The notes under the pieces: model-generated
Databases searched by the model: none
Seen by the model: only the letters and a program-made list of their open reading frames with translations
Told to the model about the DNA's origin: nothing
Part shown: positions 35,918-64,000 of the stretch, piece after piece
Numbering within the stretch: position 1 is the first letter of the stretch
Layout of the letters: each line of letters starts with the position of its first letter
Assembly: GCF_002845745.1 (NCBI RefSeq)
Contig: NZ_PIUM01000009.1
Span: forward strand, 62,001 to 126,000
Direction: 5' to 3'
Length of the DNA: 64,000 nucleotides
Origin: Telmatospirillum siberiense
Lineage (GTDB): Bacteria; Pseudomonadota; Alphaproteobacteria; Rhodospirillales; Magnetospirillaceae
Translations under genes and position numbers: made by a program

Positions 35918-38900
35918 ATGATGCAGGTCTCACGGCGACAGTTTTTCAAGATTTCAGCGGCCGGCTTGTCGGCGAGCAGCATGGCGGCGCTGGGTTTTTC
36001 GGCATCCCCGGCTCTGGCCGAGGTGCGGCAGTACAAGCTGTTACGGGCGAAGGAGACCCGCAACACCTGTACCTATTGTTCGGTGGGCTGCGGCCTGCTG
36101 ATGTACAGCCTGGGTGACGGCGCCAAGAACGCCAAGGCCAATATCATCCATATCGAAGGCGATCCGGACCATCCGGTCAGCCGTGGCTCGCTCTGTCCCA
36201 AGGGCGCCGGGCTTCTGGACTTCGTCCACAGCGAAAGCCGCCTCAAATATCCGGAAGTCCGCGAGGCGGGCTCCAAGGAATGGAAGCGGATTTCGTGGGA
36301 GGAGGCCATCACCCGCGTCGCCCGGCATATGAAGACCGACCGCGACGCCAATGTGGTGGCCAAGAACGCCCAGGGCGTCCCGGTCAATCGCTGGCTTTCC
36401 ACCGCCATGCTGACCGCCTCGGCCTCGTCCAACGAGACCGGCATTCTCAGTCAGAAATTCATCCGTTCGCTGGGTATCGTCGCCACCGACGCCCAGGCCC
36501 GCGTCTGTCACGGACCCACGGTATCGGCCCTGGCTTCGACCTTCGGCCGCGGCGCCATGACCAACAACTGGGTCGATATCAAGAACGCCGATTTCATCCT
36601 GGTCATGGGCGGCAATCCGGCCGAGGCCCATCCCGTCGGCTTCAAATGGGCCATCGAGGCGAAGAAGAAGGGCGCGCGCCTGATCGTCGTCGATCCCCGT
36701 TTCAACCGCACGGCCTCGGTGGCCGACGACTTCCTGCCGATCCGCGCCGGTTCCGACATCGCTTTCCTGGGCGGGATCATCAACTGGCTGATCTCCAACG
36801 GCAAGATCCAGTGGGATTATGTCAAGGCCTACACCAACGCAGCCTTCATCGTCAGCGAAGGCTACTCCTTCGACGAGGGGCTGTTCGCCGGCTATGACGA
36901 GGCCAAGGGGCAATACGACCGCGGTTCCTGGTCCTATGAACTGGACGAGGCCGGCGAGGCGAAGGTCGACCCCACGCTCGAACATCCGCGTTGCGTGTGG
37001 AACCTGCTGAAGCAGCATTATTCCCGCTATACGCCCGAGATGGTGGTGACGCTGACCGGCAGCCCGAAGGACGGTTTCCTCAAGGTTTGCGAGCATCTGG
37101 GCGCCACCGCGGTTCCCGACAAGGTGGCGACCATCCTCTATGCCTTGGGCTGGACCCAGCATACCACGGGCTCGCAGAACATCCGCACCATGGCGATGAT
37201 CCAGCTTCTGCTGGGCAACATCGGCATGCCAGGGGGCGGAGTGAACGCGCTGCGCGGACATTCCAACATCCAGGGTTTGTCCGATCTGGGGCTGTTGTCC
37301 ACCAGCTTGCCTGGCTATCTGACCCTGCCCAGCGAAAGCGCCCATCCCACCTTCGCCGACTATATCGCCAAGAACACGCCGAAGGCCCAACGCCCGGGGC
37401 AGATGAACTATTGGGGCAATACGCCCAAGTTTTTCGTCAGTCTGCTGAAATGGTTCTGGGGTGACAAGGCCACGCGCGAGAACGACTGGGGCTATGACTG
37501 GCTGCCCAAGTGGGACCGCATGTATGACGTGCTGGCCATCATGGACCTGATGCACCGGGGCAAGCTGAACGGCTTCATCGTCCAGGGCTTCAACCCCCTG
37601 GCCTCGCTGCCCGACTACAACAAGAATGTCGCCGCTTACGCCAAGCTCAAATATCTGGTGATCATCGACCCGATCGCCACCGAAACCTCGACCTTCTGGC
37701 AGAACCACGGCGAATTCAACGACGTGGATAGCGCCTCGATCCAGACCGAGGTGTTCCGCCTGCCCTGCACCTGCTTCGCCGAGGAGGACGGCTCGATCGT
37801 CAATTCCGCCCGCTGGCTGCAATGGCATTGGAAGGGGGGCGAACCGCCGGGCGAGGCCAGATCCGACCAGGCGGTGCTGGGCGAACTGTTCTTCGCCTTG
37901 CGCAAACTCTATCAGGAGGAGGGCGGCACCCTGCCCGAACCCATCCTCAATCTGTCCTGGCCCTATGCCAACCCGCGCGAGCCGACGCCCGAGGAGCTGG
38001 CCAAGGAGATGAACGGCCGGGCCTTGACCGATGTCGTCGATCCCAAGGACCCCACCAAGGTTCTGGCCCGCAAGGGCGAGCAGCTTCCCGGCTTCGCCCT
38101 GCTGCGCGACGACGGCTCCACCCTCTGCGCCGCCTGGATCTTCTCGGGTTGCTGGACCCAGGCAGGCAATCAGATGGGCCGGCGCGACAATACGGATGTC
38201 GGTCTTGGCGCCACCCCGGGCTGGGCCTGGTCATGGCCGGCCAATCGCCGGATCCTCTACAACCGGGCGTCCTGCGATCCGGCCGGCAAGCCCTGGGATC
38301 CCAATCGCAAGCTGATCGCCTGGACCGGCGAGAAATGGGCGGGCGGCGATATTCCCGATTTCCAGGTCGACGCCGGGCCGCAGACCGGCATGAACCCCTT
38401 CATCATGAATCCGGAAGGGGTTGGCCGTCTGTTCAGTACCGACAAGCTGGTGGACGGGCCGTTCCCCGAGCATTACGAGCCGATGGAAAGCCCGCTGGGG
38501 ACCAATCCCCTGCATCCGAAGGTGGTTTCCTCGCCGGCGGTTCGCATCTTCGCCGCCGACAAGGAGCGCCTGGGGACCCGCGAGAAATTTCCCTATGTCG
38601 GCACCACCTACCGGCTGACCGAGCATTTCCAGTTCTGGACGAAGAGCGTGCGTCTGTCGGCCATCGCCCAGCCGCAGCAGTTCGTCGAGATCTCGGAACA
38701 GTTGGCCGCCGAAAAGGGCATCGTCAACGGCGAATGGGTGAAAGTCTCCTCCCGGCGCGGTTTCATCAAGGCCAAGGCCATGGTGACCAAGCGCGTCAAG
38801 GTATTGACGGTCAACAACCAGACCGTCCATCAGATAGGCATTCCCCTGCATTGGGGATGGGTGGGGGTGGCCCAGAAGGGCCATCTTGCCAACAGTCTGG

Positions 38901-38974
38901 CGCCGGCGGTGGGCGACTGCAATACGCAGACTCCGGAATATAAGGCCTTCCTCGTCAATATCGAGAAAGCGTGA
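35918..38974 (+). CDS. fdnG: Formate dehydrogenase N/O-type, catalytic molybdopterin subunit, Cys form
   Basis: The 1018-residue protein matches FdnG/FdoG in length. It has a Tat signal (SRRQFFK, cleaved after about residue 34), a [4Fe-4S] site (NTCTYCSVGCG), and the active-site stretch RVCHGPTVSALASTFGRG. In E. coli FdnG this position is selenocysteine; here Cys197 is encoded by TGT, so selenium is not needed. The protein binds a molybdenum or tungsten bis-MGD cofactor, oxidises formate to CO2 in the periplasm and passes electrons to FdnH. ATG 35918 follows AAAAAGGGA. Confidence 0.95.
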   Translation: MMQVSRRQFFKISAAGLSASSMAALGFSASPALAEVRQYKLLRAKETRNTCTYCSVGCGLLMYSLGDGAKNAKANIIHIEGDPDHPVSRGSLCPKGAGLLDFVHSESRLKYPEVREAGSKEWKRISWEEAITRVARHMKTDRDANVVAKNAQGVPVNRWLSTAMLTASASSNETGILSQKFIRSLGIVATDAQARVCHGPTVSALASTFGRGAMTNNWVDIKNADFILVMGGNPAEAHPVGFKWAIEAKKKGARLIVVDPRFNRTASVADDFLPIRAGSDIAFLGGIINWLISNGKIQWDYVKAYTNAAFIVSEGYSFDEGLFAGYDEAKGQYDRGSWSYELDEAGEAKVDPTLEHPRCVWNLLKQHYSRYTPEMVVTLTGSPKDGFLKVCEHLGATAVPDKVATILYALGWTQHTTGSQNIRTMAMIQLLLGNIGMPGGGVNALRGHSNIQGLSDLGLLSTSLPGYLTLPSESAHPTFADYIAKNTPKAQRPGQMNYWGNTPKFFVSLLKWFWGDKATRENDWGYDWLPKWDRMYDVLAIMDLMHRGKLNGFIVQGFNPLASLPDYNKNVAAYAKLKYLVIIDPIATETSTFWQNHGEFNDVDSASIQTEVFRLPCTCFAEEDGSIVNSARWLQWHWKGGEPPGEARSDQAVLGELFFALRKLYQEEGGTLPEPILNLSWPYANPREPTPEELAKEMNGRALTDVVDPKDPTKVLARKGEQLPGFALLRDDGSTLCAAWIFSGCWTQAGNQMGRRDNTDVGLGATPGWAWSWPANRRILYNRASCDPAGKPWDPNRKLIAWTGEKWAGGDIPDFQVDAGPQTGMNPFIMNPEGVGRLFSTDKLVDGPFPEHYEPMESPLGTNPLHPKVVSSPAVRIFAADKERLGTREKFPYVGTTYRLTEHFQFWTKSVRLSAIAQPQQFVEISEQLAAEKGIVNGEWVKVSSRRGFIKAKAMVTKRVKVLTVNNQTVHQIGIPLHWGWVGVAQKGHLANSLAPAVGDCNTQTPEYKAFLVNIEKA

Positions 38975-38989
38975 GGAGGGAGGACTATC

Positions 38990-39904
38990 ATGCCATTGCA
39001 ATCATTGGATATTCTTCGCCGGTCCGCCAGCCCGACGGCATCCCCCCAGGTCCGTGGCCCCGAAGAGGTGGCCAAGCTGATCGACGTCACCACCTGCATC
39101 GGCTGCAAGGCCTGCCAGGTGGCCTGTTCGGAATGGAACGACCTGCGCGAGGAGGTCGGCACCAATCACGGCATCTACGACAACCCCATCGACCTCTCGG
39201 CCCAGGCCTGGACGGTCATGCGCTTCACGGAAGTCGAGGAGCATGGCAAGCTGGAGTGGCTGATCCGCAAGGACGGCTGCATGCATTGCTCGGATCCCGG
39301 CTGCCTGAAAGCCTGTCCCTCGCCGGGGGCGATCATCCAGTACAAGAACGGCATCGTCGATTTCCATCAGGAGAACTGCATCGGTTGCGGCTACTGCATC
39401 TCCGGCTGCCCGTTCAACATTCCGCGCATCAGCACCCAGGACAACAAGGCCTATAAATGCTCGCTGTGCTCGGACCGGGTGGGTGTCGGGCAGGAGCCGG
39501 CCTGCGTCAAGACCTGTCCGACGGGGGCCATCCAGTTCGGTTCGAAGGAGGCGATGAAGGAATACGCCGCCGAGCGTATCGTCGATCTGAAAAGCCGCGG
39601 CTTCGAGAACGCCGGTCTCTACGATCCGGAAGGGGTGGGCGGCACCCACGTCATGTATGTGCTGCACCATGCGGACAAGCCCGAGCTTTACGCGAAGCTG
39701 CCGAACAATCCGGCCATCAGCGTGGCCGTCAGCCTGTGGAAGGGAATCCTGAAACCATTGGCCGGGATCGGCATGGCCGCCGCCGTGCTGGCCGGCTTCT
39801 TCCACTATGTCACCGTCGGGCCGAGCCGGGCCGATGACGACGACGACCATGACGATGCCCCGAAGAAGGGGCGGAGCGCCCGCCAGGAAGAGGCCGCGAA
39901 ATGA
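38990..39904 (+). CDS. fdnH: Formate dehydrogenase iron-sulfur (beta) subunit
   Basis: The 304-residue protein carries four [4Fe-4S] cluster motifs: [35 protein letters not shown] and the CSLCSDR...CVKTC set. A single C-terminal membrane helix follows (about residues 240-270, [17 protein letters not shown]), with an Asp- and Lys-rich tail. This is the FdnH/FdoH architecture: the subunit carries electrons from the catalytic subunit to the cytochrome b subunit and anchors the complex. It overlaps fdnI by ATGA. Confidence 0.94.
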
Positions 39905-40533
39905 AGCAGAAGATGATACAGCGCTATACCGCCGCGGAGCGGGTCAACCATTGGATCGTCGCCGGCAGTTTCCTGCTGCTGGCCATTTCGGGCCTGGGCT
40001 TCTTCTTTCCCGGTTTTTTCTGGCTGACCGATATTTTCGGTACGCCGCAACTGGCCCGCATCATTCATCCGTTTGTCGGCGTGCTGATGGTTCTGGCCTT
40101 CGCCAGACAGTTCCTGCGCTATTGGCATCACAACCTCATCGACCGCGAGGACGTGAAATGGATGAAGGATGTCGGCGAGGTGCTGAAAGGCAACGAGACC
40201 GCCGACGTCGGCCGCTACAACGCCGGCCAGAAGGGCATGTTCTGGCTGATGACCATCTGCCTGATCCTGCTTTTATGTTCGGGCTTCGTCGCCTGGCGGC
40301 CTTATTTCGCCATTCATTTCCCCATTCCGCTGATCCGCCTGGCCCTGCTCGTCCATTCGGCCAGCGCCGTCGCCCTGATCATCGGCATCATCGTGCATGT
40401 CTATGCGGCCATCTGGGTGAAGGGAACCATCCGCGCCATGGTCGAGGGCATCGTCAGCCATGCCTGGGCAAAGAAGCATCACCCCCGCTGGTATCGCGAA
40501 ATGGTGAACAAGTCGTCGTCGACAACGCCGTGA
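39901..40533 (+). CDS. fdnI: Formate dehydrogenase cytochrome b556 (gamma) subunit
   Basis: The 210-residue membrane protein has four helices with histidines placed for two b-type hemes ([49 protein letters not shown]). This is the FdnI/FdoI family, which passes electrons from FdnH to the quinone pool. It is the last gene of the operon; a strong hairpin follows 13 bases after the stop. Confidence 0.94.
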
Positions 40534-44166: not shown

Positions 44167-44865
44167 TTAAGTCTGATGGTTCGGGGAAACCAGGACCTTG
44201 AGTCCCTGGGCGGAGGCGTCGAACTCCGCCCGCATGTTCATCTCGACAAGTGCCCGGGAAAACCAGCGGGGAACATGGTCGCAGAGGATTTCCAGCGTTT
44301 CGAACTCGGTCTCTTGCATGACGGGGATCAGCACCTGCCGGGAGTTGAGGTTCGGATCGCTTTCCAAAACCTGCGCGAGGTCGATGCGGTAATGGCCGTT
44401 GCCGACGCGCTCCAGCGAGGGCGCGGCGGCGGGACCGCAAGGGGAGCGGCCTCCTCCGCCTTTCTTGCCGCAGCATCCCTGCGCGCAGTTCGCCGCGGAG
44501 GCCTCTTCGACGGCGGCCTGTTCCCGCCGGGCGATCAGATCGGCTTCCCGTCCTGCGACGATGTCGAGCTGTTCGCGGTCCGGCCCTTGGGCCTTCCAGA
44601 TATGAAAGCCCATCTCCTCCTGGAGAAGGGAATAAACCAGCCCGCGCACTTCGCCGGACACCAGGACACGGCAGTCTTCCAGTCGGTCGACGACGTCCCC
44701 GAGGGCCGACTTCACCTCGGAGAGCGTCATGTCCGGTCCGACCTCGAAAGGGATTTTCTTACGCGCTTCCCATGCTCCGGCGGCATTGTCGTAAACGCGG
44801 ACATGGCCCGGCTCGTAAAGACTGGAGAGCGTTCCCTCCTCATCGACGTAGGTTGCTATTTTCAT
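44167..44865 (-). CDS. anfO: Fe-only nitrogenase accessory protein AnfO
   Basis: The 232-residue protein starts at ATG 44865 after GAGAGG. It shows the AnfO family pattern: MKIATYVDEEG, the N-terminal half VRVYDNAAGAWE and IPFEVGPDMTLSEV, a central Cys-rich stretch (NCAQGCCGKKGG) and a C-terminal conserved part (MQETEFETLEILCDHVPRWF). AnfO is found only with iron-only nitrogenase and is needed for its function by an unknown mechanism; the Cys-rich stretch may bind metal. It lies 94 bases after anfK with a hairpin in between. Confidence 0.92.
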   Translation of the reverse strand: MKIATYVDEEGTLSSLYEPGHVRVYDNAAGAWEARKKIPFEVGPDMTLSEVKSALGDVVDRLEDCRVLVSGEVRGLVYSLLQEEMGFHIWKAQGPDREQLDIVAGREADLIARREQAAVEEASAANCAQGCCGKKGGGGRSPCGPAAAPSLERVGNGHYRIDLAQVLESDPNLNSRQVLIPVMQETEFETLEILCDHVPRWFSRALVEMNMRAEFDASAQGLKVLVSPNHQT

Positions 44866-44903
44866 GCCGACCTCTCGTGGAGATAAACGGGGCGGGAGGA
44901 GCC

Positions 44904-44931
44904 GGACATTGGCCGCCAAGGCGGAATGTCC
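44904..44931 (-). promoter_or_regulatory. Intercistronic hairpin between anfK and anfO
   Basis: GGACATT (44904-44910) pairs with AATGTCC (44925-44931), and an inner CCGC/GCGG helix extends the stem with a two-base bulge. In the anf transcript it lies just after anfK and may stabilise the upstream messages or reduce read-through into anfO. Confidence 0.5.
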
Positions 44932-44959
44932 AACCTTGCAAAGGTGGTAACCCCAAAGG

Positions 44960-46348
44960 TCACCAGACGTTGAGGAGCCACTCCTTGTTCTTTTTGTGCT
45001 CCATATCGGTGAACAAGGCGTTGGCCATCTGTTCGACCAGCCAGATGGCGCCGCCGTACCCGACTACCGGATGGCGATACAGGCCGGCCCGGTCGTAGGT
45101 GGGAAAGCCGACGCGGACCATCGGGATGTCGTAGTCGATGGAAATGAAGCGGCCTTTGGAATGGCCGAGGATGAGGTCGAGTTTCAATCCTTCGTTCTTG
45201 ATCCGGTTTTCCAGGTCCCAGAAATCCGCGTTGGTGATGATTTCCATGCCGTAATCGACATTGTCCCGCAGCGCCTTGATGCGCGGATCGTCGACGTAGG
45301 AGGCGTTGTCGTCGCCCAGCAGCAGCAGGACGGGCTTCATTTCGAGATCGAGGCAGAACTCGGCCAAGCCGATCACCAGATCCGGGTTGCCGTAGATCGC
45401 CACCTTCTTGTCGGCGAGGAACATATGCGTGAGATCGGTCAGCGCGTCGAGGGCGACGCCCCGTTCCCGCACCAGCGACGGGGGAATGGGCTTGCCGGTG
45501 AGGGCCTTCAGATTGTGCAGAAAGCTGTCCGTGTTGCGGATGCCGATGGGCGTCGGGCCGATGATGGTGGGGATATCGAAGGTCTTTTCCAAATATTGGG
45601 CGGCCTTGCCCCCTTCATAGCGATTGAGCGCGATGGTCGCCTTGGCATTGGCGGTGTCGGCCAGATCCTCGATGGTGGTATTGCCGTGAGAGACGGCGCT
45701 GCCGTCGGGCATCATCGGCGAATCGAAGCTTTCGATCTCGAACAGCACCGTCGCGTCGATATCCATCTCGGCCAGAAGATGCTTCAACTCCTTGACGTCG
45801 CCGGGATTGACCCAGCCGGTGATCAAATTGATCTTGTCGTTCGGTTCGCCCTTTTTCGCGAATTTCTTGACGAAGTCGCGCACCGCCACGTCATAGCCGG
45901 TGACCATGGAGCCGACGAAGCTGGGCGTGTGGATGGCCAACAGCTGGATATCCCGGTCCGCATATTTTTCCTTCAGCAGGCCTTCTTCCAGCTTGGTGAC
46001 GACACCGTCCACGTCGTCGCCGATCACCTCGGTCGAGCAGGTGGTGATGATCGGGATCACCCGGATGTTCGGGTAGCGGGCCAGGAGCACGTCGATTCCT
46101 TCCTCGACGCGGCCGCAGGCCCCGAACACCGCGCCGTCTTCATGAACCGACGACGAGGCGATCTCGAAACTCTCCTTCAGATGCTGGGAGATCAGCAGGC
46201 GGACGAACATCACGCAACCCTGGCCGCCATGGACGATGCCGATGCAGTCCTTGATGCCGATGCTGGCGAATTGGGCTCCCGCCGGCTGACAGGTGAAGAT
46301 CGGATTGATCGTGCCAACACGGTCTTTGACTTTGACGTCACATGTCAT
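44960..46348 (-). CDS. anfK: Fe-only nitrogenase FeFe protein beta subunit AnfK
   Basis: The 462-residue protein matches AnfK length. P-cluster ligands are Cys20 (NPIFTCQPAGAQ), Cys45 (HGGQGCVMF) and Cys104 (ITTCSTEVIGDD). The lack of a long N-terminal extension and the TCQPAGAQFASIGIKDCIG stretch distinguish it from NifK. It pairs with AnfD in the FeFe protein; electrons delivered by AnfH pass through the P-cluster to the FeFe cofactor. It follows anfG by 13 bases. Confidence 0.97.
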   Translation of the reverse strand: MTCDVKVKDRVGTINPIFTCQPAGAQFASIGIKDCIGIVHGGQGCVMFVRLLISQHLKESFEIASSSVHEDGAVFGACGRVEEGIDVLLARYPNIRVIPIITTCSTEVIGDDVDGVVTKLEEGLLKEKYADRDIQLLAIHTPSFVGSMVTGYDVAVRDFVKKFAKKGEPNDKINLITGWVNPGDVKELKHLLAEMDIDATVLFEIESFDSPMMPDGSAVSHGNTTIEDLADTANAKATIALNRYEGGKAAQYLEKTFDIPTIIGPTPIGIRNTDSFLHNLKALTGKPIPPSLVRERGVALDALTDLTHMFLADKKVAIYGNPDLVIGLAEFCLDLEMKPVLLLLGDDNASYVDDPRIKALRDNVDYGMEIITNADFWDLENRIKNEGLKLDLILGHSKGRFISIDYDIPMVRVGFPTYDRAGLYRHPVVGYGGAIWLVEQMANALFTDMEHKKNKEWLLNVW

Positions 46349-46361
46349 GATGCGATTCCTT

Positions 46362-46706
46362 TTAGTAGTGCTGGACGGTCAGTTCTTCATTGAGCGAGCC
46401 GTCGATGGTCAGCCAATCCAGGCGCTCATGCAGCTTCTGCATGAGGGTCTTGATGGCCGTCTTGTCCATCGTGGCCAGCCAGGGGTAGCGTTCCCGGTAG
46501 GCTTCGGCGAGGCACACGGCGTCGACCCAGTAGCACTTGTCCAGGGGGGTCGGATTGTCGACGGGCTCGTCGCAGAGAAGCTGCGTGGTCTTGGTAAGGA
46601 CGCCGACGTTCTGTTTCCGGCGGTCCTTGGCGCGGGAATTGAACTGCCACAGGCAGTTCTTCATGATGTAGTCCATAAGCTGTTCCAGCTTTGTCGCGTC
46701 ATCCAT
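46362..46706 (-). CDS. anfG: Fe-only nitrogenase delta subunit AnfG
   Basis: The 114-residue protein has the diagnostic delta-subunit sequence: [33 protein letters not shown] and GSLNEEL near the C-terminus. Delta subunits occur only in alternative nitrogenases and the length fits AnfG. I chose ATG 46706; a GTG at 46724, overlapping the anfD stop (GTGA), would add six residues. It lies between anfD and anfK, the standard order. Confidence 0.96.
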
Positions 46707-46720
46707 GGCTTGGGGCTCCC

Positions 46721-49294
<2,574 letters not shown>

Positions 49295-49405
49295 TCAGAA
49301 AATCGCGATCAGAATTCCGGGAAAAACGACGAGTTTGACGTTTTTACATAACCATATGATATATAATGATTATTATGAATCCGTGGCGGAGCGGGCGTGG
49401 CCTGA

Positions 49406-49542
49406 AATTTACCGCAAGTGAATATTTTCCAAGAAATTTACCTGACCGTAAATTGTCCTTCCACCCGCTCGTTCTTTGGTCTCGATCTATAATTTACCTC
49501 TCTGGTAAATTATTCAAAACCGGTATCCGCGAAGCGTAAATT
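49406..49542 (-). promoter_or_regulatory. Cluster of AATTTAC/GTAAATT dyads, candidate AnfA enhancer sites
   Basis: One dyad is perfect: ATAATTTACC (49489-49498) and its complement (49504-49513) with a five-base gap. A second has AATTTAC (49435-49441) and GTAAATT (49448-49454). A half-site AATTTACC lies at 49406-49413 and a GTAAATT at 49536-49542. They are 120-265 bases upstream of the sigma-54 promoter, the usual enhancer range for NifA-like activators. Assignment to AnfA is inference. Confidence 0.65.
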
Positions 49543-49697
49543 CTTGCATGAATCCGGGCCAGGCTCGTCAAGGGGGGCAACGTTTGCCGGACAGGCAAGA
49601 GCTGGCTCAAGATGCGGAAGGGGAGCGGCTTGTCAAAGACCTGGGATGATCCGTTCGCCGCGTTTGGCGAATGGGCCAGCGACGCGGACCGGCGGGC

Positions 49698-51362
<1,665 letters not shown>

Positions 51363-60491: not shown

Positions 60492-60510
60492 GATAATGAA
60501 TCGCATTATC
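60492..60510. promoter_or_regulatory. Fur-box-like palindrome upstream of the P-type ATPase cluster
   Basis: GATAATGAATCGCATTATC agrees with the classical 19-base Fur box (GATAATGATAATCATTATC) at 15 positions; the arms GATAATG and CATTATC are perfect. An overlapping dyad ATTCATT-GAT-AATGAAT (60485-60501) extends it, as in Fur hexamer arrays. It lies 38-56 bases before the first gene of the cluster, in an AT-rich promoter region. Confidence 0.6.
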
Positions 60511-60547
60511 GCTGTGTTTGCGGGGAATTCTGAGCGGTGAGGATCGG

Positions 60548-61018
60548 ATGAGCAAGGGGGCGGATCTTCTGATATCGCGTTTGCCGGGGCGTCTTCGGTT
60601 GCGCAATGGCGCGTTGAGGAACCCGGTCTTGTGCAAACGCTTGGAGTCGGAATTCGCGGCCTGGGATGGCGTCACCTCCGCGACGGGCAATCCCGTCACT
60701 GGAAGCCTGCTCGTCATCTATGACGCGGCGCGGATCGTCCCGGCGGAGATGGAGGCGCGGGTTGCCGCCGCCGCCGCACCGGCCTGCGGCCGGGGGGCCG
60801 GGGGCGAGGATGGGGGACGTCCGCCCCGCCCGGTCCTGTCGGCGGGGTCTTTGCTGCGCCGCCTCAATCGCCCCGCCAAAATCGGCATGCTGGGCAGCCT
60901 GTCGTTGTCCCTGGCCGCCTTGGCGATGAACAAGCGCCTGCACGCGGCGGCCGGCGGGCTCTATCTCGCCTTCCTGGTCCTCCATCTCGCGCGGCATCGG
61001 GAGAGCTTGACCAAATGA
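60548..61018 (+). CDS. HMA-like domain protein with two C-terminal membrane helices
   Basis: The 156-residue protein begins with an HMA-like beta-alpha-beta domain (about residues 5-75) bearing the PGRLRLRNG motif but without the CxxC metal-binding pair. An Ala- and Gly-rich linker and two helices follow (about 108-125 and 132-150, LGSLSLSLAALAMNK and LYLAFLVLHLA). ATG 60548 follows GTGAGGA. It overlaps the next gene by ATGA. The similarity to the N-terminus of the P-type ATPase at the end of the cluster suggests an accessory or docking role; that is inference. Confidence 0.75.
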   Translation: MSKGADLLISRLPGRLRLRNGALRNPVLCKRLESEFAAWDGVTSATGNPVTGSLLVIYDAARIVPAEMEARVAAAAAPACGRGAGGEDGGRPPRPVLSAGSLLRRLNRPAKIGMLGSLSLSLAALAMNKRLHAAAGGLYLAFLVLHLARHRESLTK

Positions 61019-61344
61019 CCCTGTTGCGTTTTGCCGCCTGTTTGCGAGTTGCCCATCATATTCCGGGGCGTATCCGTCTGGGTGTGGCGGGGGGAGCCGA
61101 ACAGCCGGAATGGGGGGATGATCCGTTGGGGAAGGCCAGGCGGTTCAGTCAGGCGCTGACCGGCGTTTCCGGGATCCGCTCGGTGCGTCTCAATCCGTTG
61201 GCACGGTCCTGCACGGTGGAATACGACCCTTCCGCCATTCCTCCCGCCGCCTGGCAGGATTTGCTGTCCGGCACCGGTTCCGCCGCCGCGGATAAGCTCC
61301 GCGCCATTTTCCTGGCCGCGGAGAGCGCTGCGGCAAAAGGATGA
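61015..61344 (+). CDS. HMA-like domain protein, soluble
   Basis: The 109-residue protein is almost entirely one HMA-like domain: HHIPGRIRLGV near residue 14, GIRSVRLNPLARSCTVEYDP in the middle, no CxxC pair and no membrane helix. It is translationally coupled to the preceding HMA-like gene. It may bind or regulate the ATPase. Confidence 0.75.
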   Translation: MTLLRFAACLRVAHHIPGRIRLGVAGGAEQPEWGDDPLGKARRFSQALTGVSGIRSVRLNPLARSCTVEYDPSAIPPAAWQDLLSGTGSAAADKLRAIFLAAESAAAKG

Positions 61345-61402
61345 GCGGCCCTCCGGCCGATGAAATTTTCTTGGTTCGACCTCATTAGGGAAAGGCGACG
61401 GC

Positions 61403-61774
61403 ATGCTTCCTCTTCTTCCTTTCGCCGCGGGGCTGGCGGCGGGTATTTTCGGTATCCGTTTGCTGAAAGGCGTCAAGGCGGCCGACTATCGGGACGTCAA
61501 TGCCGCCGCGCGGGAACGGCTCGATCGGGCGCGGAACAATGTGCGGCAGGCGGCGGTGGCGGGTCTGTCGGCGGTGGAACATTCCTCGGCCAGTCTGCGG
61601 GCAAAATTGACGCCCGAGGCGGTGCCCGAGGCTGCGGCAAACCCCGATCCAACCGCCAAGCGGACCCGAAACGCCAGGCGCGTCAAGCCGCAAGACTCGA
61701 TCGAGGCGAAACCGGCGCGCCGGAAACGCGTCCCGAAGGCCGCCGCGCCGAAAACGACGGATGACCCGTCGTGA
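61403..61774 (+). CDS. Small protein with N-terminal membrane helix and basic tail
   Basis: The 123-residue protein starts at ATG 61403 after AGGGAAAGG. It has one N-terminal helix (LPLLPFAAGLAAGIFGIRLL, residues 2-21) then a charged region (about 25-60) and a Lys-, Arg- and Pro-rich disordered tail. DUF5132-like small membrane proteins have this form. It overlaps the next gene (GTGA). Confidence 0.65.
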   Translation: MLPLLPFAAGLAAGIFGIRLLKGVKAADYRDVNAAARERLDRARNNVRQAAVAGLSAVEHSSASLRAKLTPEAVPEAAANPDPTAKRTRNARRVKPQDSIEAKPARRKRVPKAAAPKTTDDPS

Positions 61775-62088
61775 AGCGTCGCAAGATCAAGGGGCCGCCG
61801 GTCGTGGTTGTCGCCGATTTCGCGCGCGGCTTCGTCGCGACGGCCCTGCTGGCGGCCATTCAGAAAGAGGGCGGGGAACGTCCGCGTTCCGGGCGGGCGG
61901 TCTTGCGCCGGGCCGTCCAAGGTGGCGCCGCTCTCGCCGCGGGAACGGCGGTGGCCGATGCCTTGCGGCGACGGCGGTATGCCGACGCCCTGCTGGCCGC
62001 CGCCGGCGGTGGAGCCGGCATTCTCGCGGCGGAACTTCTGTTGGCGCCAGTCGATCAATCAAGTGATACCGGCGAACCGCTGATCTGA
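61771..62088 (+). CDS. Small membrane-associated protein with MITE-derived C-terminus
   Basis: GTG 61771 overlaps the preceding stop. The 105-residue protein has two Ala/Gly-rich hydrophobic stretches (about residues 50-62 and 71-92) and a basic N-terminus. Residues 99-105 (DTGEPLI) and the stop codon are encoded by the MITE at 62066-62144, so the original C-terminus was replaced. I do not recognise the family. Confidence 0.6.
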   Translation: MKRRKIKGPPVVVVADFARGFVATALLAAIQKEGGERPRSGRAVLRRAVQGGAALAAGTAVADALRRRRYADALLAAAGGGAGILAAELLLAPVDQSSDTGEPLI

Positions 62089-62144
62089 CTTGTTCGTCGG
62101 TATAGCCGCCATTGAGGCGAGTCACTTCGGTGACTCGCCGGTAT
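62066..62144. mobile_element. 79-bp MITE related to the IS630 element
   Basis: The left end ATACCGGCGAAC and right end TCGCCGGTAT are inverted repeats. The first 25 bases match the right end of the IS630 element at 19968 at 23 positions. Inside is a 10-base stem (GGCGAGTCAC, loop TTCG, GTGACTCGCC; 62116-62139), copy 3 of the hairpin repeat with ATTGAG before it and GGTATGA after it. It probably moves with the IS630 transposase. It splits the cluster between two coupled genes. Confidence 0.75.
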
Positions 62145-62193
62145 GAAACCCCCTCTGACTTTTAAAACCGGCATCAGACAAGGAGATTTGGAC

Positions 62194-62502
62194 GTGGCGA
62201 AGAAAAAGCAAAAAAAGGCGAAGAATGGCGGAAAGGCCGCCGACCGGGATACGGCTCGACAAACGGCGGGGCAAGGCCTGTTCGCCGGGCTGCTGCCGTC
62301 GCGCCGGTCGGAGCAGTTCCTGCTGGGGGCCCTGTTGGGCGCGGCGGCGGCTTATGTCCTCAGCGACGAGGATTTGCGCGGCAAACTGATCAAGGGCGGT
62401 TTACGCCTCTATTCGGGGTTGGCCGGCGGGTTCGAGGAAATGAAGGAGCAGGTGGCCGATCTCAAGGCTGAGATGGCGGCCGAGCAAAGCGGTCTGCTAT
62501 GA
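62194..62502 (+). CDS. Small membrane-anchored protein, YtxH-like
   Basis: I chose GTG 62194 because AAGGAG precedes it by eight bases; the ATG at 62143 lies in the MITE. The 102-residue protein has a very basic N-terminus (KKKQKKAKNGGKA), one hydrophobic helix (about residues 42-60, FLLGALLGAAAAYVLS) and a coiled-coil-like acidic tail (GGFEEMKEQVADLKAEM). This resembles YtxH-type single-pass proteins. It overlaps the ATPase gene by ATGA. Confidence 0.65.
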   Translation: MAKKKQKKAKNGGKAADRDTARQTAGQGLFAGLLPSRRSEQFLLGALLGAAAAYVLSDEDLRGKLIKGGLRLYSGLAGGFEEMKEQVADLKAEMAAEQSGLL

Positions 62503-64000
62503 GCGTCCGGTCCTGGTTCATCGCGGTGGATATCGTCCATCGCGTGCCGGGACGGCTCCGCTTGCGTTATCGCTGTCGCGCCGGGACGCCGGCCGAGGCG
62601 GCGTGCATCCGGCGGGCCGCGGCCGAAATCGACGGTGTCCTTGCCGCGCGAGTCAATCCCGCCGTTCATGCGCTGATCCTCTCCTTCGATCCGGCGCGGA
62701 CCGATGCGCCGGATCTGCGGCGGGCGGTGATGGCGCTTCGTCCCCCGGCCGTCGCCGAACCTTCCGCCGGGGAGACGGACGGCGGTGGCCGCCAGGTCGC
62801 CGTCGGACTGCTGGCGCTGGCCGGTTCGGGCCGGCTTCCTCCGCCGGCGCGGCTGGCCGTCACCGCCGCCGCCGCCGTGCCGGTTTTGCGGCATGCCGCG
62901 CGGGACCTTGCCGGAACGGGCGTCACCTCGCACGTCCTGGAAGGCGTCGCGGTGGCCATTTCCTTGGCGCGCGGCGATTATCTGGCGGCCAATACCACCA
63001 CCTTCATGCTGGCGCTGGGCGAATATCTGGAAAATTCCATCGCCCGCCGGTCCGACGCGCTGTTGAAACATCTGCTGCGGCCGACCGGTGACGAGGTATG
63101 GATTCTGCGGGAGGGGCAGGAGGTCTCCGTGCCCGCCACCGCCGTCGCCGTCGGTGACACGGTGATCGTCGGTGCCGGCGCCGTCGTCCCGGTGGACGGG
63201 ACCGTGCTGTCGGGCGAGGGCACGGTCAATCAGGCGGCGATGACCGGCGAAAGCGTGCCCACCGTCAAGGGGCGCGGCGATGCCATGTTGTCGGGCACGG
63301 TGGTCGAGGAAGGGCGGCTGGCCATCTATGCCGAGCATGTCGGTCCCCATACGGCGGCGGCCCGCATCGCCCGTTATGTCGAACAATCCCTGGAGGCCAA
63401 GAGCCGGACGCAGATGGAGGCGTCACGGTTGGCCGATCGTCTGGTGCCCGCCGTGCTCGGCATGGCCGGCGCCTCCTTCGTGATATCGGGCGACTGGCGC
63501 CGCGCCGCCTCGGTGTTGCAGGCCGATTATTCCTGCGCCTTGAAACTGGCCACGCCGGTGGCCTTCAAATCGGCGATGTACGGGGCGGGCAAGGCCGGCA
63601 TCCTGGTGAAGGGCGCCGACGTGCTGGAACGACTGGCCGAGGCCGACACCTTCATCTTCGACAAGACGGGCACTCTGACCAGCGGCATCTTGCAGGTGAC
63701 GGACGCCATCACCTTCGATTCGGCTTATTCGGCCGACGATCTGATTTGTCTCGCCGCCTCGGTCGAGGAGCATTATTTCCACCCCCTGGCCCTGGCCGTG
63801 GTGGCCGCCGCCCGCGAGACGCGCTACCGCCATTTCGATCATCAGGATGTCGAGTTCATCGTTGCCCACGGCGTTACCAGCATCGTCGACGGCAAACGGA
63901 TCGTCGTCGGATCCCGCCATTTCGTGGAAGAGGACGAGGGGATCGATATCGGCCCCCATCGACGGGTTGTCGACCGCCTGTATCGAGACGGCAAAACCCT
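62499..64000 (+). CDS. P1B-type metal-transporting ATPase, partial (runs off the end)
   Basis: The first 500 residues are present. An HMA-like domain (VHRVPGRLRLRYRC, residues 13-26) without CxxC starts the protein. Membrane helices follow, then the actuator domain with MTGES near residue 250 and the phosphorylation site Asp388 in FDKTGTLTSG. The metal-binding membrane motif, normally CPC or SPC, reads DYSCALKLATPVA (Cys346), so a canonical Cu+ or Zn2+ pump is unlikely. With the Fur-like box upstream, iron or manganese is a possible substrate. The nucleotide-binding domain and C-terminal helices lie beyond 64000. Confidence 0.9.
   Translation, partial: MSVRSWFIAVDIVHRVPGRLRLRYRCRAGTPAEAACIRRAAAEIDGVLAARVNPAVHALILSFDPARTDAPDLRRAVMALRPPAVAEPSAGETDGGGRQVAVGLLALAGSGRLPPPARLAVTAAAAVPVLRHAARDLAGTGVTSHVLEGVAVAISLARGDYLAANTTTFMLALGEYLENSIARRSDALLKHLLRPTGDEVWILREGQEVSVPATAVAVGDTVIVGAGAVVPVDGTVLSGEGTVNQAAMTGESVPTVKGRGDAMLSGTVVEEGRLAIYAEHVGPHTAAARIARYVEQSLEAKSRTQMEASRLADRLVPAVLGMAGASFVISGDWRRAASVLQADYSCALKLATPVAFKSAMYGAGKAGILVKGADVLERLAEADTFIFDKTGTLTSGILQVTDAITFDSAYSADDLICLAASVEEHYFHPLALAVVAAARETRYRHFDHQDVEFIVAHGVTSIVDGKRIVVGSRHFVEEDEGIDIGPHRRVVDRLYRDGKT

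Follow-up and report, generated by a model that had tools for sequence, protein, structure and literature searches.

A predicted fez (ferrosome) operon near iron-only nitrogenase genes in Telmatospirillum siberiense

Results

A six-gene cluster that ends in a P-type ATPase

The window, by which we mean the whole 64,000-nucleotide stretch of Telmatospirillum siberiense DNA that was analysed (contig NZ_PIUM01000009.1, positions 62,001 to 126,000), ends in a cluster of six co-directional genes on the + strand (60548-64589), of which gene 6 encodes a P-type ATPase; the cluster is very probably a fez (ferrosome) operon. The preliminary description of this DNA had seen five small genes ahead of a P1B-type ATPase, linked for the most part by ATGA or GTGA overlaps. 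All six genes were confirmed, and such 4-base overlaps join them at three of the five junctions (61015, 61771 and 62499); a gap of 58 bases separates the genes at one of the other two, and a gap of 105 bases at the last if gene 5 begins where we prefer. The ATPase gene overruns the window by 589 bases; in full it encodes 696 amino acids and spans the window-equivalent positions 62499-64589. For comparison, gene 5 was used to scan named genomes, which yielded 84 relatives, 80 of which were kept as named loci.

The ATPase (P0006; 62499..64000, + strand, continuing past the window) is predicted from the NCBIfam model TIGR01525 (480.6 bits) and from its motifs to be a FezB-like P1B-6 pump; the NCBIfam models that it matches above cut-off are solely those for general P-type, heavy-metal and Cd-family ATPases. 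It carries SCALKLATP and LHNG, both marks of the P1B-6 type, and has neither CPC nor CxxC. Related pumps in the 80 named loci have SCA in transmembrane segment 4 (TM4) in 74 cases and HN in TM6, given as a P1B6 mark in excerpts of PMC9374683, in 77. The six SCA misses comprise two SCS-type sequences, one ACA, one cut gene and two unmatched, and the SCA and HN misses taken together are SCS/ACA variants, other spellings, a fusion and cut genes. One reading frame in a Sulfuricella metagenome-assembled genome (MAG; L044:5874-8555) joins the pump C-terminus to the membrane part of gene 1 (59% identity across 69 residues to a gene-1 homologue), and this fusion, a single case from a metagenome assembly, favours a joint complex. 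In a further relative (L023:5386-7500), the ATPase lies in two reading frames near its C-terminus.

Gene 1 (P0001; 60548..61018, + strand, 156 amino acids) encodes a FezC-like protein in which Pfam, a homologue alignment and a structure model place two long C-terminal helices after an HMA_2 domain, and gene 2 (P0002; 61015..61344, + strand, 109 amino acids) encodes a small HMA_2 protein, assigned through HMA_2 in its homologues and motif counts, with HH-x-PGR and SC and no CxxC. The preliminary description's three HMA-like proteins without CxxC hold up: HMA_2-type domains are found in P0001, in P0002 and weakly in the ATPase N-terminus, and none has a CxxC. Pfam HMA_2 places P0001 barely above cut-off (30.4 vs 30 bits), P0002 barely below it (27) and the ATPase N-terminus weakly (15.8); the assignment of genes 1 and 2 is made firmer by their homologues, which match HMA_2 throughout at E≤0.1 (28/28 for gene 1 and 29/29 for gene 2). 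CxxC occurs in the first 100 residues of 0/80 related ATPases (their starts set by script), and in 0/74 gene-2 homologues and 1/56 gene-1 homologues. The strict PGRxRxR motif is present in 30 of the 80 ATPases, and gene-2 homologues carry H(H/Q)xxGR (73/74) and SC (72/74) almost without exception.

His132 and His146 of P0001 are invariant in 28/28 aligned gene-1 homologues, 10 of the 28 match DUF4405 at E≤0.1 (best E = 0.0024), and the model (predicted local distance difference test score, pLDDT, 83.6) puts the helices that follow the HMA domain at residues 99-127 and 129-155. With two post-HMA helices, an invariant His pair and weak DUF4405 matches, P0001 thus fits FezC, the ferrosome cytochrome, and is predicted to bind heme. 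FezC also carries an HMA domain. A Foldseek search with the P0001 model returned HMA domains among the best matches, none at E≤0.001, with unrelated folds alongside.

Genes 3, 4 and 5, which had been described as three further small hydrophobic proteins, do encode small membrane proteins. That of gene 3 (P0003; 61403..61774, + strand, 123 amino acids) has a GxxxG segment, an amphipathic stretch and a basic tail, with F7, G10 and G14 invariant among 34 aligned sequences; P0003's own sequence matches no Pfam family at E≤1. Three helices (11-30, 41-66 and 70-91; pLDDT 78) are predicted for the gene 4 protein (P0004; 61771..62088, + strand, 105 amino acids). The gene 5 protein (P0005; 62194..62502, + strand) is DUF5132/YtxH-like by the Pfam matches of its homologues at E≤0.1 (DUF5132 in 25/29, YtxH in 15/29); none of the 11 papers found by a literature search mentions DUF5132. 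Its start is most likely the GTG at 62194, after AAGGAG, rather than the ATG at 62143, because close relatives begin there with MAKK (7/8; MKLAKK in the eighth). Genes 3 and 5 look related, their families giving an hhalign profile match of 88%. Between genes 4 and 5 lies a hairpin on the + strand (62116..62139) with a 10-bp stem and a TTCG loop, for which the folding energy is -22.4 kcal/mol (z = -4.1 for 62100-62150); no T run follows it, and it is possibly a site of RNA processing or attenuation.

Conservation of the cluster

The cluster was sought in 199 genomes of the same taxonomic order, our own included, among which 22 others belong to the window's family. Matches to gene 4 were found in 10 of the 199, again counting our own, and the cluster is present in all but one of the other nine; we discarded that one (G186, L028), from outside the family, as a chance match, no neighbouring gene being matched. 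In seven of the eight same-family copies the six genes are complete and in the conserved order (the pump of one lying in two frames); in the remaining copy the contig stops short of gene 1. Seven of these eight are also among the 80 named loci, so the two sets overlap. The named relatives include Azospirillum, Magnetospirillum, Rhodoblastus, Azotobacter, Thauera, Azoarcus and Ectothiorhodospira. A clustering of conserved flanking open reading frames (ORFs) was blurred by shadow frames in the GC-rich DNA.

Had the small genes occurred mostly without the ATPase, a dedicated gene set would be hard to maintain. They do not: among loci that were all located through gene 5, this gene adjoins the ATPase gene in 80/80 named loci, in 12/12 loci of a second (Rhodoblastus) order (one being the genome of L041) and at 12 of another 14 sites, the remaining two of which are at contig ends. 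Genes 1, 2, 3 and 4 were recognised in 56, 74, 69 and 66 of the 80 named loci, some of which are cut by contig ends, and gene 1 is on the opposite strand in 15 of the 56 loci that have it. A Vibrio plasmid carries, by eye, a six-gene version in which gene 1 is reversed in strand and matches HMA_2. Of the dedicated membrane complex around the pump that had been proposed, the gene set is thus borne out by its conserved order, and for the complex itself the one fusion speaks in favour. One MAG (L081, G176) is labelled Stygiobacter, probably wrongly; it clusters with genomes of the window's family, and one of its contigs, of 87,777 bases, holds a fez operon of the Magnetospirillum type.

Iron genes and a Fur-type palindrome

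Upstream of gene 1, by 37 bases, stands a Fur-type palindrome, GATAATG-AATCG-CATTATC (60492..60510, no strand assigned), which agrees at 16 of 19 positions with a Fur-box consensus; its first base is also the first base of the region singled out in the preliminary description (60492-64000). The pattern GATAATG-N5-CATTATC matches once in the window vs 0.09 matches expected (up to 2 mismatches), and three times at ≤1 mismatch in the 6.2-Mb genome, each time exactly. The other two copies precede feoA-feoB and a TonB-dependent receptor gene, for which we infer the start; the longest ORF would overlap the palindrome.

Genes for iron handling also accompany the cluster elsewhere. feoA/feoB lie within the fetched stretch in 26/80 named loci and in 7/12 Rhodoblastus-order loci (one shared with the 80), counts to be set beside an estimate of chance proximity of ~1% or less, which assumes one or two feoB per 4-Mb genome. 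A ferritin-like gene was recognised in 26 of the 80 named loci; in A. vinelandii it sits between genes 2 and 3 (Pfam DUF2202 matches weak), and in an Arcobacter plasmid copy it is annotated DUF2202. A ferritin-like, weakly DUF2202 insert at L102:4314-5012 has a hydrophobic C-terminal segment. On a conjugative plasmid of Cereibacter azotoformans (L120:2108-11632), a divergent fez-like cluster, whose pump has ACP instead of SCA, lies amid FeoA, two TonB receptors and FecR. The transported metal is very probably iron.

Nitrogenase genes and the fez operon

Roughly 9 kb of DNA with unrelated genes separates the fez operon from anfO, anfK, anfG, anfD and anfH and an AnfA/NifA-like activator gene (44167..51362, - strand), which were identified with NCBIfam models. 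Matches above cut-off were to TIGR02940, TIGR02931, TIGR01861 and TIGR01287 (bits vs cut-off: anfD 1106.7/873.8, anfK 954.5/853.85, anfO 210.5/129.15); the activator, at 503.7 bits, stays under the NifA cut-off of 528.85, and anfG (ORF 46362-46724) was assigned by position and eye. Three nifH-like genes in the genome score above cut-off. Elsewhere in the genome, a copy of the palindrome and the TonB receptor gene (C1:24568-30460) lie ~5 kb from another nifH copy (C1:29636). The window further holds a formate dehydrogenase-N type alpha subunit gene followed, by eye, by iron-sulfur and cytochrome-like subunit genes (35918-40533).

In the 199-genome sample, a gene-5 (C5) profile marks 17 fez genomes (one match with internal stops) and nifH is above cut-off in 56; nifH is present in 16 of the 17 fez genomes (the exception being G176) vs 40 of the 182 without fez (Fisher's exact test, 3.6e-9), and a family-stratified exact test, on the 100/199 genomes with listed families, gives p = 0.002. 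AnfD is above cut-off in 4/199, all four fez-positive (p = 4e-5, uncorrected for relatedness; two are genomes of one species, M. fulvum), and any AnfD-like match at E≤1e-100 occurs in eight genomes, six of them fez-positive. Among 49 named fez genomes, chosen from the 80 to spread over taxa, nifH is above cut-off in 32 and AnfD in nine. In a class-wide sample, in which fez was not searched, AnfD is above cut-off in 1/385, our own genome.

Two Magnetospirillum genomes, G083 (C17:16962-33878) and G164 (C13:21500-42784), have nifV-feoA-feoB-fez on one strand; farther upstream the same strand bears nifH, D, K, E, N, X and Q, and a few other ORFs intervene (gene names mostly from NCBIfam or Pfam matches above cut-off). 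In L057 and L058, too, feoAB-fez is preceded by nifV, and in Rhodocyclus tenuis (L092) a partial nifH lies ~3 kb from fez. A general physical linkage of fez and nif was considered and is not supported: a panel of 17 nif/anf proteins matches in 5/80 named loci of 12 kb, four of them look-alikes of the Magnetospirillum type.

Discussion

The preliminary description knew of no described function for the small partners of the pump; such gene sets have in fact been reported, in the sections consulted of PMC12016538, PMC11334425 and PMC12574912, as fez genes that build ferrosomes. We assign the cluster to this group because of the P1B-6 marks of the pump, the FezC-like gene 1, the six-gene set, the iron neighbours, the Fur-type palindrome, the fusion and the conserved order. 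FezB itself is reportedly a P1B-6 ATPase, and the abstract of Grant et al. from 2022 is said to state as much. As excerpts of the literature have it, FezC is a ferrosome cytochrome, homologous to DUF4405 and heme-binding, with conserved His residues (PMC11334425); Rhodopseudomonas palustris CGA009 builds ferrosomes from six fez genes (PMC12016538); Clostridioides difficile requires FezA and FezB for its ferrosomes and represses them through Fur (PMC12574912); and in D. magneticus ferrosomes accumulate when iron returns after limitation (PMC12748827). The window cluster resembles the CGA009 set (RPA2333-2338) in having six genes with a P1B-6 ATPase (as FezB reportedly is), a DUF4405-like FezC and an iron context, and differs from it in lying ~9 kb from iron-only nitrogenase genes. 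With C. difficile it shares a P-type pump with a membrane protein and, if the Fur-type palindrome acts as such, Fur regulation, a likeness by description to a system for which the consulted part of PMC12574912 names FezA and FezB alone.

We propose that iron limitation would relieve Fur repression and turn the operon on together with FeoAB and the TonB receptor. FezB, the P1B-6 ATPase, would then move Fe(II) into a membrane compartment, at whose membrane the FezC-like heme protein may alter the redox state of the iron; the small HMA protein of gene 2 may deliver or gate iron without a CxxC, and the three small membrane proteins may shape the vesicle or hold it. What is observed is the gene content with its motifs and conservation, the neighbouring iron genes and the Fur-type site; from these we infer every function in this organism, including what each of genes 2-5 does.

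Two arrangements that need no organelle have to be weighed against a fez operon. In a plasma-membrane efflux platform of the PacL/CtpC type, the pump would export metal while the small proteins scaffold it, and the likeness is real: CtpC has the same HN motif, a small membrane protein gene with paired glycines in its membrane helix stands beside the pump, and mycobacterial small membrane scaffolds encoded next to such pumps form platforms, according to portions of PMC9374683 and PMC13043812. CtpC, however, has a CPC that the window pump lacks, PacL1 has a C-terminal metal motif, and genes 3-5 have no detected homology to a small, five-sequence DUF1490 profile (which scores gene 3 at 0.3%, gene 5 at 0.2% and gene 4 at 0.9%). 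DUF6110 was matched neither in our genome at E≤0.001 nor in the 34 gene-3 homologues at E≤0.1, so that a kinship of the small proteins with PacL or DUF6110, suggested by eye, is unsupported by the profile comparisons. Since the Fur-type site is common to the operon and uptake genes, storage would fit better than efflux, and we regard such a platform as improbable. The pump might instead be an ordinary heavy-metal P1B ATPase for Zn, Cd or Cu whose small accessory proteins play no part in an organelle, as its general, heavy-metal and Cd-family NCBIfam matches would allow. Against this are the missing CPC and CxxC, the iron neighbours and the Fur-type site, with the qualification that the divergent Cereibacter pump of this kind does carry ACP; we think this highly improbable.

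Several observations weigh against a fez operon all the same. The cluster is patchy in its own family, occurring in eight of the 22 other genomes and missing from 14. P0001's own DUF4405 match has E = 0.13, the best homologue reaching 0.0024, and no FeoAB is seen among the ORFs flanking the window copy. A search for the Fur consensus ahead of the operon in 73 relatives gave no more than chance, in that 51% of shuffles scored as high as the real sequence and 6/73 relatives reached 13/19; the Fur-type site is therefore a feature of our own genome, and we rejected it as a conserved one. The likeness to RPA2333-2338 is by description, and the organelle is in this organism a prediction from genes. 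With these points counted, a fez operon remains in our judgement the strongly favoured identification.

The position of fez ~9 kb from the anf genes raises the possibility that nitrogen fixation draws on the stored iron. Few enzymes cost a cell as much iron as nitrogenase, and how diazotrophs bank iron for it is not settled. Our tentative proposal, which we hold to be possible and rather doubtful, is that in diazotrophic proteobacteria the ferrosome may be part of the N2-fixation toolkit, an iron reserve that would be filled ahead of, and drawn on by, nitrogenases, above all the iron-only enzyme, with a dedicated FeoAB supplying it, and that in some Magnetospirillum fez may be the last part of the nif cluster. 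Several points argue against such a link: within the window's own family nifH is as common with fez (8/9) as without (12/14); 17 of the 49 named fez genomes have no nifH above cut-off; physical linkage is seen in 5/80 named loci, and a panel of 11 nif/anf proteins matches in 0/12 Rhodoblastus-order loci (up to 20 kb); and C. difficile, which bears fez, is to our knowledge no nitrogen fixer. We found no such link in print in the open-access literature. The parts consulted of PMC12016538 report no complete fez set and only the Mo enzyme in Rhodopseudomonas DSM127 and fez with an alternative nitrogenase in CGA009, a contrast qualified by the reduced genome of DSM127; there the iron need of nitrogenase appears in the paragraph that leads to iron transporters and fez genes, with a ferrosome supply of nitrogenase unstated, and the portions consulted of PMC9160268 treat ferrosomes and nitrogenase apart.

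If our assignment holds, a relative of Magnetospirillum that is itself diazotrophic would carry a ferrosome operon, and the parts list of that operon would include membrane proteins of the DUF5132/YtxH-like and three-helix kinds. The possible link to nitrogenase is the part of the finding most worth following up, and it raises a testable question: do ferrosomes feed nitrogenase?

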